Assembly (NCBI GenBank): GCA_016931935.1
Contig: JAFGDW010000157.1
Coordinates: 56,166 to 120,165 of the forward strand
Length of the DNA: 64,000 nt
From: Candidatus Zhuqueibacterota bacterium
GTDB taxonomy: Bacteria > Zhuqueibacterota > Zhuqueibacteria > Thermofontimicrobiales > Thiofontviventaceae
Direction of reading: 5' to 3'
Shown here piece by piece: positions 55,652 through 64,000 of the stretch (position 1 is the first letter of the stretch; each line of letters begins with the position of its first letter). The position numbers and the translations under genes were made by a program. A model generated the notes under the pieces. The model saw only the letters and a program-made list of their open reading frames with translations, did not search any database and was not told the DNA's origin.

Positions 55652-57229
55652 ATGAAATACATCACATTTACGACGCTCATGCTTTTCCTTGCGACGGAAC
55701 TATTTGCCCAGGTGGCTGGTGTAAAAAAAGTTGGTGACCGCGGTGATTACCCGACGCTTTCGGCTGCAATTGCCGACATTAACTCCCAGGGATTGATCGA
55801 TCATACAATTCTGGAACTGATGAACGGTTACGATCAGACAGAAAGTTTCATCATTCATAATTATCCGGGTTGTACGGACTACAATTTAACGATCCGGCCG
55901 GAAGCAGGTGCGACAACTGCAATCCTTCGCTCGGATGATGCGTACATTATATTTTGTGATAGCAGCAATAACGTCGCAATTGACGGACGTGCCGGGGGAA
56001 TGGGTTCACAAAATTGCTTGAAATTTGAACATACAAACAACGGTAACTCGTCGACGCTGCGGATTGATAACGGGTCAGGCAATACCCATATTCACAATTG
56101 TACAATCCGGTTCGACGGATCGCGCGCGATTAATTTGTTCCAGGCGACGAACTCACTGGTTGAATATTGCGATATCGCCAGCTACTCATCGGGACCGGCT
56201 TCCAATACGGCAACTATCGGCATAAAAACCAGCCATAGCATTAATTCAGTGATTCGTAATAACCGTATTCATCACCTGCATGTAAATCAGGATCAGTATT
56301 TCATTTATGGAATTCAGGGGTACGTTCCCACCGTTGCAACATCAAACGATTCTATTTACAACAATTTCATCAGCCTGAATGCGGAGCGAACCGACACCAC
56401 TGCATTTGTCGATGGCATAAATTTTAACGGCAGCGCCGACCATCATTTGTACATATATTTCAATACAATTTATATCAGTGGTGAAAACGTTGCTTTCGGC
56501 AGCGGGAAGAATATAAATATTACTACAAAAGGCGTGGCGGATGTTTTCAATAATATCTGTCTGAACACCCGTTCTAACGGAACCGGTAGTGATTTCCACA
56601 TGGCGATGTTTTACAACATATCCGATGCTGGCATGATTCAGTCGGACTTCAATATCGTCAATGTCTCGGGTGAAGGCGCTGCACTGGGCTTCAATAATGG
56701 ATTCTTTTTCACGTTTGATGAATGGCAGGCCTATTCCGGCGTTGATGGCAATTCGATTTCCAAACCGGTTCACCTCGCTGACGTTCGCAATGGCGATTTA
56801 CATCTGGCGAATCAATCCTGCAATGACGCCGATCTGTTGGGCGAGCCTGTCCTTAATTTACCATATGACATTGATGGTGAACTTCGGCACAGCAGTCTCC
56901 CCTACTGTGGCGCCGATGAACCGGCAAAAGCTGCATTTATTGAATCGGGCACAATAAAGACTCCAGCGCAAGCGCAATTAATGCCCAATTACCCCAATCC
57001 ATTTAATGCGCAAACGATGATTTCGATTACCGTGCCCGAGTTAGCGGATGTAAGTCTGGAAATTTTCAATCTACGGGGGGAAATTGTCGCAACAATCTTT
57101 CAGGGAATGCATGAAGCAGGTACATTCTCATATATATTCGATGCAAACAATTTACCATCCGGCGTTTATTTTTACAAATTAACCGCCCGTGGCATGTCAC
57201 AGTCACGAAAATTACTTTTAATCAAATAA
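55652..57229 (+). CDS. Parallel beta-helix secreted protein with T9SS sorting domain
   Basis: 525 residues with GGAGG upstream. Signal peptide MKYITFTTLMLFLATELFAQ; then from residue ~25 a right-handed beta-helix like pectate-lyase folds, opening with VKKVGDRGDYPTLSAAIADIN and showing many short NxI/NxF turns. The C-terminal ~80 residues form a Por-type sorting domain: NYPNPFNAQTMISI, LEIFNLRGEIVATI, GTFSYIFDANNLPSGVYFYKL, ending LLLIK. It is likely a cell-surface or secreted protein, perhaps binding or degrading polysaccharide. No catalytic residues are certain. Confidence 0.85.
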   Translation: MKYITFTTLMLFLATELFAQVAGVKKVGDRGDYPTLSAAIADINSQGLIDHTILELMNGYDQTESFIIHNYPGCTDYNLTIRPEAGATTAILRSDDAYIIFCDSSNNVAIDGRAGGMGSQNCLKFEHTNNGNSSTLRIDNGSGNTHIHNCTIRFDGSRAINLFQATNSLVEYCDIASYSSGPASNTATIGIKTSHSINSVIRNNRIHHLHVNQDQYFIYGIQGYVPTVATSNDSIYNNFISLNAERTDTTAFVDGINFNGSADHHLYIYFNTIYISGENVAFGSGKNINITTKGVADVFNNICLNTRSNGTGSDFHMAMFYNISDAGMIQSDFNIVNVSGEGAALGFNNGFFFTFDEWQAYSGVDGNSISKPVHLADVRNGDLHLANQSCNDADLLGEPVLNLPYDIDGELRHSSLPYCGADEPAKAAFIESGTIKTPAQAQLMPNYPNPFNAQTMISITVPELADVSLEIFNLRGEIVATIFQGMHEAGTFSYIFDANNLPSGVYFYKLTARGMSQSRKLLLIK

Positions 57230-58800: not shown

Positions 58801-60594
58801 ATGCGCTTACTTAATTTCTGCTCAAATCGGCGACCGATCCCTGTCGCTGTTTCACTTCAAATTATCAATTTGTGGCGACACACTTTTTGTGCTTCTCTAT
58901 TTCTGATAATGCAAGTGATTAGCGTTAAAGCTCTCACCATTAACGCCCATCGCATTGAAATTACAATAACCACAACCTCAGACTGGAGCTGGCTGCAATT
59001 GGCGGGAGATATCCCGCTGGCGCTGGGCGGCTACACTGTTGCGCTAAACCAATCCCCAAATGCAACGATTGGCGCCAATTTGTATGTCGAACAGCCCGGA
59101 CATACCGATTCCGTTCAGGTTCACTATATCGCATATCTTGTGCCGGATGCCTTGACAGATGATCTGCAATTTATCAGCATGAAGGGCGACTGGGGCGAAA
59201 TGTCAATTGCTATTGACGGTTGGCATTCAGGAATGGCCGCGTCCATTTGTACATTTCGTAATCAAGATTATGATCCCGATGATCCATTAAATATACAACA
59301 ATTTAGTGTATCGGCAGCAGCACTTCGCTCGCTGGATACCGAACCGCTAGAAATTACTGAACCGGAAATGCAACCTTTGGTGTTCGCATTCTATTATCCC
59401 TGGTACGGCAGTCCGGATGGCCCGCATGGCGACTGGTACCATTGGAATCCTGAAGGCAACACGTACGAAGCTGCCCATGAGCCGCTGCTCGGGTATTATG
59501 ATTCCGGTTCGCCGGAGCTGCAACAGCAGCATCTCCAATGGGCTGAAGCATATGGGATTGATGTTTTTATTTATTCATGGTGGGGAATTGATACGTATGA
59601 AGATCGTTATTTTGCCGGATTTCTCGATCAGATGGCGGCCTCCCCGATTCGGTTATCTGTTTACCTGGAACCAATAGCTGACGCTGAACTGGCGCCGCCG
59701 GATGAGCGTCCGCGAATTATCGAAACCCAGTTGCGTTATTTGCTCACAAATTATATGCAGCATTCGGGCTTCTTTCATTATGAAGACAAGCCAGTGATTT
59801 TTATTTACGGCACCACAATTTCGCTTATGCCTGTTACTGATTGGAAGCATGTGTTCGAAAATCTGCGCGCTGATAATTTAGACATGTATCTTCAGCTTGA
59901 TACGCGCGACAAAGACATGCGGTTACTTGGCGACGGATTTCACGATTACAATCCGGTCGCCGCAGATACCTGCCGGATGAAAACAGTTTATCGGCAGCAG
60001 ACAATTGCCGCCGGACTGCTTAACCTTCCGTACGCAGCAACGGTTATCCCCGGTTATAATGATACCGCCATTCGGATTCCGGGACAATACGTTTCACGGG
60101 ATGATGGCCGTTTCTATCAAATACAGTGGAATACCTTAGCAGAACTTCAACCCGCCTGGATTTTGATTACAAGTTGGAATGAATGGCATGAGGGGACTGA
60201 AATTGAACCATCCGTACAGTACGGGATGACCTATTTAAACATAACACACCAGGAGCGCGCTCGCTGGCAACAAGCCGTTTCGGATGTCCGGCGAGCATCC
60301 GGCAGCATCACACGGCCAGTGTCGATGGCGATGGATGCGTTTCCCAATCCATCGTCCGCTGACATGCATTTTACATTGCACGGAATGCCCGATCAAACTG
60401 CCCGTTTTCACATCTACAATATCGCCGGCCAGCAGATTGCATCACTTGTCGCGCGCACCAATTCATTCGGTAGCTCCCGCCAAATTTGGGATGGCAATAC
60501 CGACCGCAATACCGCTGCACCATCGGGAATCTATTTCGTCCGTGTGGAATCCGGGCAGCAAACACTCACGCATAAAATTACCATCGTGCGTTAG
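58801..60594 (+). CDS. GH99-like glycoside hydrolase with T9SS sorting domain
   Basis: 597 residues; the first ~45 include a hydrophobic stretch that may be a signal peptide, though a later start is possible. From residue ~190 the enzyme core begins: LVFAFYYPWYG, GPHGDWYHW, AYGIDVFIYSWWG, LSVYLEP and ITSWNEWHEGTEIEPS, matching the GH99 endo-alpha-mannosidase/mannanase-like group, with the EWHEG segment near the active site. A C-terminal sorting domain (FPNPSSADM ... SGIYFVRVESG, ending KITIVR) marks it for type IX secretion. It probably acts on mannan-like glycans at the cell surface; specificity is inferred. Confidence 0.85.
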   Translation: MRLLNFCSNRRPIPVAVSLQIINLWRHTFCASLFLIMQVISVKALTINAHRIEITITTTSDWSWLQLAGDIPLALGGYTVALNQSPNATIGANLYVEQPGHTDSVQVHYIAYLVPDALTDDLQFISMKGDWGEMSIAIDGWHSGMAASICTFRNQDYDPDDPLNIQQFSVSAAALRSLDTEPLEITEPEMQPLVFAFYYPWYGSPDGPHGDWYHWNPEGNTYEAAHEPLLGYYDSGSPELQQQHLQWAEAYGIDVFIYSWWGIDTYEDRYFAGFLDQMAASPIRLSVYLEPIADAELAPPDERPRIIETQLRYLLTNYMQHSGFFHYEDKPVIFIYGTTISLMPVTDWKHVFENLRADNLDMYLQLDTRDKDMRLLGDGFHDYNPVAADTCRMKTVYRQQTIAAGLLNLPYAATVIPGYNDTAIRIPGQYVSRDDGRFYQIQWNTLAELQPAWILITSWNEWHEGTEIEPSVQYGMTYLNITHQERARWQQAVSDVRRASGSITRPVSMAMDAFPNPSSADMHFTLHGMPDQTARFHIYNIAGQQIASLVARTNSFGSSRQIWDGNTDRNTAAPSGIYFVRVESGQQTLTHKITIVR

Positions 60595-61743: not shown

Positions 61744-62766
61744 TTATTTTCTAAATAACAATTTTAATAACTCCGTGGAATCTGCTTGCATAGCGTGTCC
61801 TCGCCAACTTGCGATTCGTTGTATCAAATTGTCCGGAGGATATTTATTCCATTGTTTCATCCGGCTACGTAATTTTCGAATATTTTTTGCCGACAGACGC
61901 CGGTGAGTGCGATAAACAACCTGCCCAAGAAATCGTCGTCCGGTAAGTGCAGGAAAAATGTGGCACTGGTTTGGATTGAGTTTCAATTTATACAATGAAA
62001 GAAAGTCAGCTACCCGTTTCCACCAATCTTTCAAAATAGTTTTTGTATTATCCAGTAAAACAAAATCATCAACATATCGGACATATGCCTGACACCCCAA
62101 TTGTTCTTTAATAAAATGATCCAGCGGATCGAGATAAACGTTGGCAAAAAACTGGCTGGTTAAATTTCCAATCGGCAGCCCCTGTCGCCGTTCAACTGGT
62201 GTTAGTAAATCATCACCAGGGAAATATTGCACCACGGATTCCTGAAGATTGCTGTAATCGATTATGGTATCAATTAGCCATAATGCATTTGCATCAGCGA
62301 TGCGCCGGCGGATGAGTGTTTTTAATATGTTATGATCGATCGATGGGAAATATTTCCGGATGTCGCATTTCAGGGCAAATTCATACTTTCGTAGAAACAA
62401 CTGAAATCGTCTGATGGCGGCGTGGGTGCCTTTGCCAATACGATTGGCATAGCTATCGAAAATAAAGCGGGTTTCGAAAATCGGTTCGATAATATTAATC
62501 AGCGCATGATGAACCACCCGGTCGCGAAATGGTGCGGCGCTAATCAAACGCGGTTTGGGATCATAAATATGAAAGGTGGAATATCCTCCGGGTTGATAAC
62601 TTTGTGTTTCCAGTTCGTGCTGTAATTGCCACAGGTTATCTTCCAACCTGTCGAAAAACAACAAAACATTTGGTTGTTCCCGTTTGCCTCGGGCCGCGTT
62701 CCGGGCTGCATTAAACAGGTTTTCAAACCGGATGATTTCAGGAAATAAATTATTATATGTTTTCAT
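61744..62766 (-). CDS. DGR reverse transcriptase
   Basis: 340 residues, typical of DGR enzymes. The palm shows DIRKYFPSI (Asp135), the [24 protein letters not shown] segment at residues ~195-218, which is the DGR/retron-related motif, and the YVDD catalytic box at 231-234. A thumb region with [21 protein letters not shown] follows. There is no maturase/endonuclease extension, so it is not a group II intron enzyme. The template repeat lies at 63173-63302 and the Avd gene at 63357-63740, all on the same strand. It would reverse-transcribe TR RNA with adenine-specific errors. Confidence 0.93.
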
Positions 62767-62845
62767 CGTTTAAATGAAATTGTGGAGAAACAATTCGATC
62801 AGGCATAAACAGACAGATTTGACACCATCCGTCTGATGACTAACG

Positions 62846-63056
62846 CCGCCATTAATGGCGGTGAATCGGTATGACAGGAATAGCGGGCTTCAGCCCATCA
62901 GTTTTTTAATTGTCTGGAGCGCAGGGCTAAAGCCCGTTTGTCCTTATACACCGCAATCTACGCCCTGAAGGGCGTAGTTAGTCAATAATTGTCTCTTCGT
63001 GTGTATAAAAACATCCGGGCCGGACGTTCGACAAGCTACTTGCCCGGCCCGGGTGT
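62846..63056. repeat. Cluster of strong palindromes between TR and RT gene
   Basis: Four hairpins: CCGCCATTAATGGCGG (62846-62861, a perfect palindrome); GGGCT/AGCCC pairs at 62885-62936 that can also pair with each other; CTACGCCC/GGGCGTAG (62958-62977); and a 13-position stem with one wobble pair and a 20-base loop (63011-63023 with 63044-63056). On the minus strand they lie directly behind TR. They may structure the template RNA or simply be dispersed elements. No gene lies between 62767 and 63356 besides TR. Confidence 0.6.
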
Positions 63057-63172
63057 ATCTCTGTTCGGGACGATTCCGTATCTAAACCGCCCCCGGCAAA
63101 AGAACCGTATGTCATGCCAAATAACGGTCCGCTATTCCGTAAAATACCAGCATCCGGTTTGACTAGTTTGGA

Positions 63173-63302
63173 ATGATTCGGCCGGGACGGCCAACACACG
63201 AAACCCGTTATTGTTGTTCCTGTTATCGGGATTGTTGTTGTTACGCGCATCGCAGCGCAACCTGGTTGTATCATTGTTCCACGAGCCGCCACGCAGCGCC
63301 CG
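63173..63302 (-). repeat. DGR template repeat (TR)
   Basis: 130 bases that align without gaps to the VR at 63853-63982 (offset 680). On the coding strand it is full of AAC/AAT codons ([16 protein letters not shown] when translated). Homology stops sharply at both ends. It lies outside any gene, between avd and the RT gene. Thirty-three of its bases are A on the coding strand. Confidence 0.95.
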
Positions 63303-63356
63303 CCGTCCGCCTGGTTCTTCGCCGCCTGGCTAACAGCCAAGCTTTATTGTTGATAT

Positions 63357-63740
63357 TTAGACTTCCGAAGTTTTGGAAACTTCGGAGGTCTGAGCTATTT
63401 GAATTCCCGGCTTCTTTATCCACCCACCTAACAAACGTCCCAGTTCTGCCATTTGTCTGCTACCATATTCATAGGATTGCATGTTAATGAACTTCAATTC
63501 AAAACTTAACCGTAAAAACAATCGCAAGCGCGCCAGCGCTTCATCGGCTTTGCGTAAACAAGGGACTTTATCCTTCTGCATATTGGCGATGGTTGTCATT
63601 TCCAAAAAATCAAGCATGGCATTCTCCAATTTGACAGCCACGCTGAACCGGTGACTTTTGGGAAATTTGTTTGAATGATTCAGTAACCATTTGCAAAAGT
63701 CATAACCACGTTTAATAATCAACAAATCTTCTGTTGCCAT
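63357..63740 (-). CDS. avd: Avd-like DGR accessory protein (four-helix bundle)
   Basis: 127 residues, mostly helical and basic, with the bAvd/S23-like four-helix pattern: LLIIKRGYDFCKWLL, HRFSVAVKLENAMLDFLEMTTIA, LRKADEALARLRLFLRLSFELKF, and YEYGSRQMAELGRLLGGWIKK. Avd proteins form basic pentamers that bind the RT and RNA. GGGAG lies upstream of the ATG. The last ~10 residues (TSEVSKTSEV) and the stop are encoded by a palindromic repeat that also occurs at 58629, so the tail is likely acquired. Confidence 0.85.
   Translation of the reverse strand: MATEDLLIIKRGYDFCKWLLNHSNKFPKSHRFSVAVKLENAMLDFLEMTTIANMQKDKVPCLRKADEALARLRLFLRLSFELKFINMQSYEYGSRQMAELGRLLGGWIKKPGIQIAQTSEVSKTSEV
63359..63391. repeat. 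AGACTTCCGAAGTTT palindrome, REP-like copy B
   Basis: Stem 63359-63373 with 63377-63391, 14 of 15 matching. Same core as the element at 58629-58661. It overlaps the 3' end of avd. Confidence 0.7.
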
Positions 63741-63780
63741 ACAAACTCCCGGAATGTTTACGATGCATCAAGTTAACGTG

Positions 63781-63803
63781 GCAACCACCCTGCGGGTGGC
63801 TGC
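63781..63803. repeat. GC-rich hairpin between target gene and avd
   Basis: GCAACCACCC (63781-63790) pairs with GGGTGGCTGC (63794-63803) around 3 bases. It lies 48 bases behind the VR stop on the minus strand, roughly where some DGRs have a target-site hairpin, but further away than in the Bordetella phage. Confidence 0.5.
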
Positions 63804-63850
63804 GTTTTTTCAGAGTTTCAGATGGACAGAGTTACAGAGTTTCAAAAAAT

Positions 63851-64000
63851 TTATGACTCGGCCGGGACGGCCAACACACGAAACCCGTTATTGAGGCCCC
63901 TGCTAACGGGATTGAGGACGTTACGCGCAACGCAGCGCAACCTGGAAGTATCATAGCTCCACGAGCCGCCACGCAGCGCCCGGTATTTTTCTTCCTTACC
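63851..64000 (-). CDS. C-terminus of DGR target protein (C-type-lectin/FGE-like), right-truncated
   Basis: Fifty codons including the stop (TAA at 63851-63853); the gene starts beyond the window. The residues RALRGGSW, then CVARN and the ending [11 protein letters not shown] match the C-terminal end of formylglycine-generating-enzyme/C-type-lectin domains used as DGR targets (RGGSW ... R ... GFRV). Variable codons relative to TR give S, Y, S, V, V, L, V, S, G and L where TR has N, N, T, D, N, N, D, N, N and N. The target probably binds ligands; its N-terminal part, localisation and partner are unseen. Confidence 0.9.
   Translation of the reverse strand, partial: GKEEKYRALRGGSWSYDTSRLRCVARNVLNPVSRGLNNGFRVLAVPAES
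63853..63982 (-). repeat. DGR variable repeat (VR)
   Basis: The 130-base partner of TR. It differs at 16 positions, all where the coding-strand TR has A (T on the plus strand): 16 of 33 such sites changed, 0 of the other 97. The GC-rich block near its 3' end (TTGGCCGTCCCGGCCGA on the coding strand) fits the initiation-of-mutagenic-homing position. Confidence 0.95.

Follow-up and report, generated by a model that had tools for sequence, protein, structure and literature searches.

In the DGR of Bordetella phage BPP-1, the components stand in the order target-avd-TR-RT, with a tropism-determining phage tail protein as the target. A hairpin or IMH signal is expected to adjoin the VR in DGRs. For cellular DGRs, Dore 2024 (PMC10907252) calls the purpose mysterious and untested, and proposes a sensor role that it likewise describes as untested. 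In Thiohalocapsa PB-PSB1, a genome with more than one DGR, the targets of DGR 3 and DGR 6, like those of clade 5D, join a STAND NTPase (NACHT/nSTAND1) to a C-terminal C-type-lectin/FGE domain holding the VR. The same paper names NACHT-CLec targets, has one of the two DGR 3 NACHT targets predicted to be periplasmic, and assigns genomes with multiple DGRs, with few exceptions, to multicellular bacteria. STAND NTPase-FGS conflict systems are described in Kaur 2020 (PMC7159879) and Kaur 2021 (PMC8195603), the latter proposing that such proteins with DGR parts bind molecules of invaders. Most membrane-anchored cellular DGR targets are read in Roux 2021 as facing or binding the outside of the cell.

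The locus analysed here is a new member of this already published kind of DGR. It occupies positions 61744-64000, minus strand, of the window, by which we mean the whole 64,000-nucleotide stretch under analysis (contig C291 of the genome, positions 56166-120165). A first-pass annotation had read the order target (VR), avd, TR, RT on the minus strand, as in BPP-1, and all of these parts were located there (Table 1); its identification of a DGR stands for the RT, the Avd, the TR and the VR alike. It had also noted that the target gene leaves the window, and indeed C291 ends at position 120165, the last base of the window and 18 bases past the VR.

As in Thiohalocapsa PB-PSB1 and clade 5D, a STAND NTPase is joined to a C-terminal FGE domain with the VR, and the genome holds more than one DGR; unlike those systems, this one belongs to another lineage, and no adapter (EAD) or protease gene was recognised at the window locus. 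With the STAND NTPase-FGS systems (PMC7159879, PMC8195603) it shares the NTPase-FGE fusion, the DGR parts, an exchange of several N-terminal modules between relatives and the presence of two systems in one genome. It differs from them in the N-terminus of the target, which consists of a signal-like start and a membrane helix and is without a recognised effector or adapter domain. The RT and Avd are homologous to those of BPP-1, whereas the target is a cellular NTPase fusion. Among the matches listed, no account of this locus appeared in titles or abstract openings of open-licence PMC papers.

Table 1. Parts of the DGR cassette, in window positions, with the evidence for each
Feature	Position	Strand	Evidence
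RT, DGR reverse transcriptase, 340 aa	61744..62766	-	PF00078, 71.4 bits; PDB 8ub7_A, 190 bits; RT tree
TR, 130 nt, 33 adenines	63173..63302	-	TR/VR mismatches only at TR adenines: 16/16 (C291), 22/22 (C26)
avd, accessory protein, 127 aa	63357..63740	-	NF033474 and PF22296 above cut-off; PDB 4dwl_A, 8ub7_B
Inverted repeat, 10-nt arms, 3-nt loop, 90% complementary	63781..63803	.	about 50 nt downstream of VR
Target gene 3' end, truncated by contig end	63851..64000	-	stop codon 63851-63853; 972-aa version at C26:6-2924 (minus)
VR	63853..63982	-	TR alignment; second version at C26:8-137 (minus)

The RT reads YVRYVDD, in agreement with the DGR-type motifs noticed at first pass. Among solved structures its best match, 8ub7_A, was deposited together with an Avd chain (8ub7_B), and we take 8ub7 to be the BPP-1 complex. 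The Avd itself exceeds the cut-offs of both NCBIfam NF033474 DivGenRetAVD (105 bits, cut-off 80) and Pfam PF22296 bAvd (75.3 bits, cut-off 40), and its two PDB matches are chains named Bbp7 (4dwl_A) and Avd (8ub7_B). A group II intron or retron origin of the RT, which the first-pass annotation had named as one of two findings that would overturn it, was rejected on the PDB scores (190 bits, against 67 for the best group II RT) and on an RT tree. Within NCBIfam the group II model scored best, with 132 bits far below its cut-off of 300, and there was no DGR-RT model among the matches. The tree comprised 45 rows: 40 of 80 related loci, selected to cover their spread, and five RTs from this genome, two of DGRs and three others. 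It placed the window RT among 42 DGR-type RTs, apart from the other three, at 97% SH-aLRT, the only support measure used, with two of those three outside RTs on long branches. Inside the DGR-type set, the window RT groups with those of PRO9 and Caldithrix sp. N075bin58 (94%), and this trio joins eight Chlorobiaceae/Chlorobium sequences (99%) in a set of 11. Whether the TR lies before or after the RT switches at least three times on the tree.

The inverted repeat downstream of the VR is possibly a terminator or a DGR hairpin, both roles being guesses. Several further inverted repeats, with arms of up to 30 nt, lie in the spacer upstream of the RT (62846-63056). No known RNA family scored above its gathering threshold between 58 and 64 kb of the window.

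The TR aligns with the VR of C291 over 130 nt without a gap, and the restriction of all mismatches to the TR adenines has a chance probability of about 1e-11. Twenty TR codons contain an adenine, no TR codon can become a stop by changes at A, and up to about 10^17.6 protein versions could be made from this TR. In at least one of the two VR versions, 28 of the 33 adenines are altered, 26 of these at codon positions 1 or 2. Ten adenines are altered in both versions, three of them to the same base.

The second version emerged when the VR end was searched as DNA against the genome, which returned three places: the query itself, the TR and C26:1-155. At the start of contig C26 lies the 3' end of a 972-aa gene, and its final 43 codons make up that second VR. 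The first-pass annotation would have fallen had no open frame led into the VR; the 972-aa frame runs into it. Their overlap of 155 nt contains 25 differences, each of them at a TR adenine (chance about 3e-22), and the variable core is bordered by exactly 42 identical bases before its first and 42 after its last variable site. C291, beyond which the assembly offers no DNA to the right of the window, breaks off at the outer end of one 42-base stretch, as C26 does at that of its counterpart. Equal overhangs are what a de Bruijn assembler is expected to leave where paths fork, and because the overhangs are equal, both contigs would end at a single fork, which the diversity of the VR among the sampled cells would have created. 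C291 and C26 are thus likely to be a single locus that this diversity has split. C26 could instead carry a second target served in trans, with the gene at the window edge being another copy whose body is absent from the assembly and the DGR itself being real. An assembly in 381 contigs that is 92% complete gives this some room, as do the two targets common in clade 5D DGRs (Dore 2024, PMC10907252) and the two VRs of several related loci. We nevertheless consider a target in trans unlikely. Searches of the genome with VR and TR DNA hit only C291, C26 and, weakly and with the TR, C152, so that no third VR-bearing contig came to light; the non-TR flanks, 18 and 7 nt, are identical between the versions, and the stretches that they share on either side of the variable core measure exactly 42 nt; and an intact relative has its target in cis. 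Even in that case, the VR in the C26 gene still derives from the window TR. Two strains might also be the source of the two versions, which would then be old alleles of mixed strains next to a DGR no longer active. Against this stand the open frames of the RT, avd and target and the complete lack of non-adenine differences in 155 bases, which is unlike ordinary strain divergence, and we regard an inactive DGR as highly improbable. The DGR is probably active now, and the presence of two VR versions in one assembly lends indirect support to mutagenic retrohoming in cells.

The remaining alternative concerns the side of the membrane on which the target works. The 972-aa protein carries a NACHT domain (residues 195-359, 42.4 bits, Pfam cut-off 26.7), with GGPGSGKTTLL and LVMLDGLDEIS as readable motifs, and an FGE-sulfatase domain (residues 734-966, 134.5 bits, cut-off 23.3). 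Residues 10-28 form a hydrophobic, signal-like start and residues 67-85 a predicted membrane helix. Were the target an outward-facing surface or adhesion protein, the DGR would vary what the cell sticks to; the signal-like stretch would fit such a role, which has been proposed for most membrane-anchored cellular targets (Roux 2021). A NACHT NTPase, however, is expected to need cytosolic NTP. Moreover, a hydrophobic segment falls within residues 65-113 in 10 of 21 aligned homologues (target included), and by simple hydropathy and charge counts, on which the topology is based, all 10 are richer in K/R over the 15 residues that follow the segment towards NACHT than over the 15 that precede it. 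The other 11, some of them incomplete or with other N-terminal sequence, show no such segment in their first 160 residues. With the K/R excess on that side, NACHT and FGE would face the cytosol, and the hydropathy of this family argues against the outward reading of Roux 2021 for it. The NACHT target predicted to be periplasmic in Dore 2024 (PMC10907252) counts in the opposite direction, against a cytosol-facing sensor. On balance, we hold an outward-facing target to be quite improbable, and predict that a helix close to the N-terminus spans the membrane and leaves both NACHT and FGE in the cytosol.

The fold of the target was modelled with AlphaFold2. From a 21-row alignment the whole protein reached a mean pLDDT of 72.8, good over NACHT and the following helices and bad at 869-960. 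The best PDB matches of this model in Foldseek were NLRC4 (5.6e-12), NOD2 and NLRP3, and Avs4 bound to a phage portal was matched at 3.4e-5, with TM-scores on the query of 0.34 or less among the 50 matches listed. Thus, the NACHT part is predicted to have an NLR-like fold, and the target resembles animal NLRs and bacterial Avs4 in this fold and in a three-part layout. It differs from NLRs in sequence (11-17% identity in the NLR rows listed, with partial coverage and low TM-scores), so that we note a likeness of fold and claim no membership, and in that a hypermutable lectin-like sensor takes the place of the repeats. Since the VR end of the whole-target model was too poor, the FGE domain was modelled alone (38 rows, pLDDT 88.5). 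This model matched enzymes of the FGE fold and, in 19th place, TvpA from another DGR (2y3c, 1.9e-10), which a sequence search also matches across the VR. The VR domain is therefore predicted, from the model, to have an FGE/C-type-lectin fold.

Filing the target with Avs or bacterial NACHT proteins was rejected on the N-terminal effector domain that such a filing calls for: no Pfam domain stands before NACHT among those listed for the target, and neither the target nor the neighbours scanned yielded a recognisable effector domain or gene. The best PADLOC match was weak (PDC-S60, 23.6 bits). The next large ORFs code for a nucleoside hydrolase (upstream of the target, on C26) and for an isomerase-like protein (downstream of the RT). 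Further along C26 (25425-28079, minus) lies another NACHT-FGE-like gene with an open frame of 918 aa, which shares 31% identity with the target over one stretch and 57% over another and is unmatched by the VR and TR DNA searches.

To the left of the DGR, 10 ORFs were scanned at 45-61 kb of the window, of which six have Pfam matches at 1e-5, exclusively to families of cellular type, and four match none; families of 21 of the ORFs at 0.3-44 kb are mostly TPR repeats and metabolic enzymes (25 of 48 families listed). A phage origin was rejected for the genes scanned, no phage family being found at 45-61 kb or among those 25 of 48 families at 0.3-44 kb. TPR repeat families are matched at 1e-5 by eight of the 21 ORFs. 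Two proteins with Por-secretion C-terminal tails, one of them a GH99-like glycosidase, are encoded near the DGR (55652-57229 and 58801-60594).

A second DGR lies elsewhere in the same genome (locus L029, 3293-9362, contig C152, minus). Its target of 1053 aa has an FGE domain (132.5 bits) and a P-loop NTPase whose NACHT score of 18.1 bits is below the cut-off of 26.7; its avd scores 62.7 bits with bAvd and 89.4 bits with NF033474. The RT has 366 aa, and the TR is placed just past the RT end, overlapping it. TR and VR mismatch only at adenines (18/18 over 110 nt), and the next gene after the TR belongs to the caspase family (PF00656, 107.9 bits). The C152 RT falls outside the set of 11 that contains the window RT, so two RT branches coexist in one genome. 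Another RT, on contig C346 (locus L002), stands at the start of a 981-aa ORF with TPR-like and, by reading, primase-like parts, and the ORF ahead of it looks Cas6-like by reading; this is perhaps a CRISPR-associated RT.

Related loci were collected by an RT scan of genome contigs, in which 172 stretches were confirmed and 80 loci kept. A TR/VR pair was found on the RT strand in 64 of the 80 and on the opposite strand in four, under criteria (at least 60 nt, at least five adenine mismatches, few others) that are tuned to adenine bias. From 67 listed target ORFs of at least 200 aa we dropped L042, which has the same coordinates as L040, and L096 and L101, long ORFs in which the VR sits well away from the end; adding the two targets of this genome gave a set of 66. 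At E 1e-3, FGE occurs in 59 of these and NACHT in 28, next to metallophosphoesterase (4), DUF4062 (2), caspase (2) and trypsin (2). The intact relative mentioned above, from a genome of the same class (G031, contig C87), has target, avd, TR and RT in the order of the window. Its target of 999 aa combines NACHT (54.6 bits) and FGE (133.2 bits) with a hydrophobic segment at 73-91, its avd scores 99.5 bits with NF033474, and its RT (81.4 bits) is 66% identical to the window RT; TR and VR differ at 18 adenines and one other base.

We consider it probable, with a real margin for error, that this DGR diversifies a NACHT-FGE protein which is tethered to the membrane, faces the cytosol and senses phages or other invaders in an NLR-like manner. 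In such a system, the RT and Avd would copy the TR RNA with errors at A, and the error-bearing copy would replace the VR. The putative variable face of the FGE domain would then bind something in the cytosol, the bound ligand would switch the NACHT NTPase, and the membrane part or some partner would carry the output, with defence or cell death as the outcome.

Contig ends were compared across the 80 loci; in 39 the contig runs out within less than 6 kb on the upstream side of the RT. Of these, 24 have a detected VR on that side, and eight of the 24 contigs end no more than 200 nt from the VR 5' edge (L033, L081, L084, L085, L088, L095, L100 and L105). L040/L042, which are one stretch, and L061, judged by a match of 22 nt, seem to break off inside a truncated VR. 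Contig ends 750-1250 nt from the RT, a strip picked after the data had been seen, are found upstream in 12 of 39 loci and downstream in two of 33 (Fisher P 0.015, and still 0.015 with L040/L042 counted once). Compared with an even spread, the eight of 24 ends near the VR give P of about 3e-6, but contig ends crowd near the RT in any case; compared with the local density, the excess gives P of about 0.006-0.008. Fragmented assemblies are described as limiting DGR detection in Ye 2014 and Roux 2021, where the relevant statements do not name VR diversity as the cause. VR diversity may break metagenome assemblies, which we offer as a lead rather than a result. In practice, the break of this contig at its VR hints that DGR targets may be hidden from metagenome assemblies by such diversity.

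In conclusion, the genome holds two DGRs, one directed at a NACHT-FGE protein and one at an FGE/P-loop NTPase beside a caspase gene, which fits a role in defence. Both occur in a lineage that the main text of Dore 2024 (PMC10907252) leaves unnamed, as neither 'Calditric' nor 'KSB1' is found there, and the rule in that paper linking multiple DGRs to multicellularity predicts that this bacterium aggregates. It is likely that the bacteria keep producing new versions of an infection detector. The fuller picture, to which we give slightly less than even confidence, is of a bacterial NLR anchored to the cytosolic surface of the membrane, whose NTPase is inflammasome-like and whose sensor face is rewritten in the wild by error-prone reverse transcription, already present in two versions within this one assembled genome and so diverse that the assembly breaks. 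If true, such receptors would be systematically cut off in metagenomes, and bacteria would diversify an intracellular immune receptor by a built-in process comparable to the hypermutation of antibodies.
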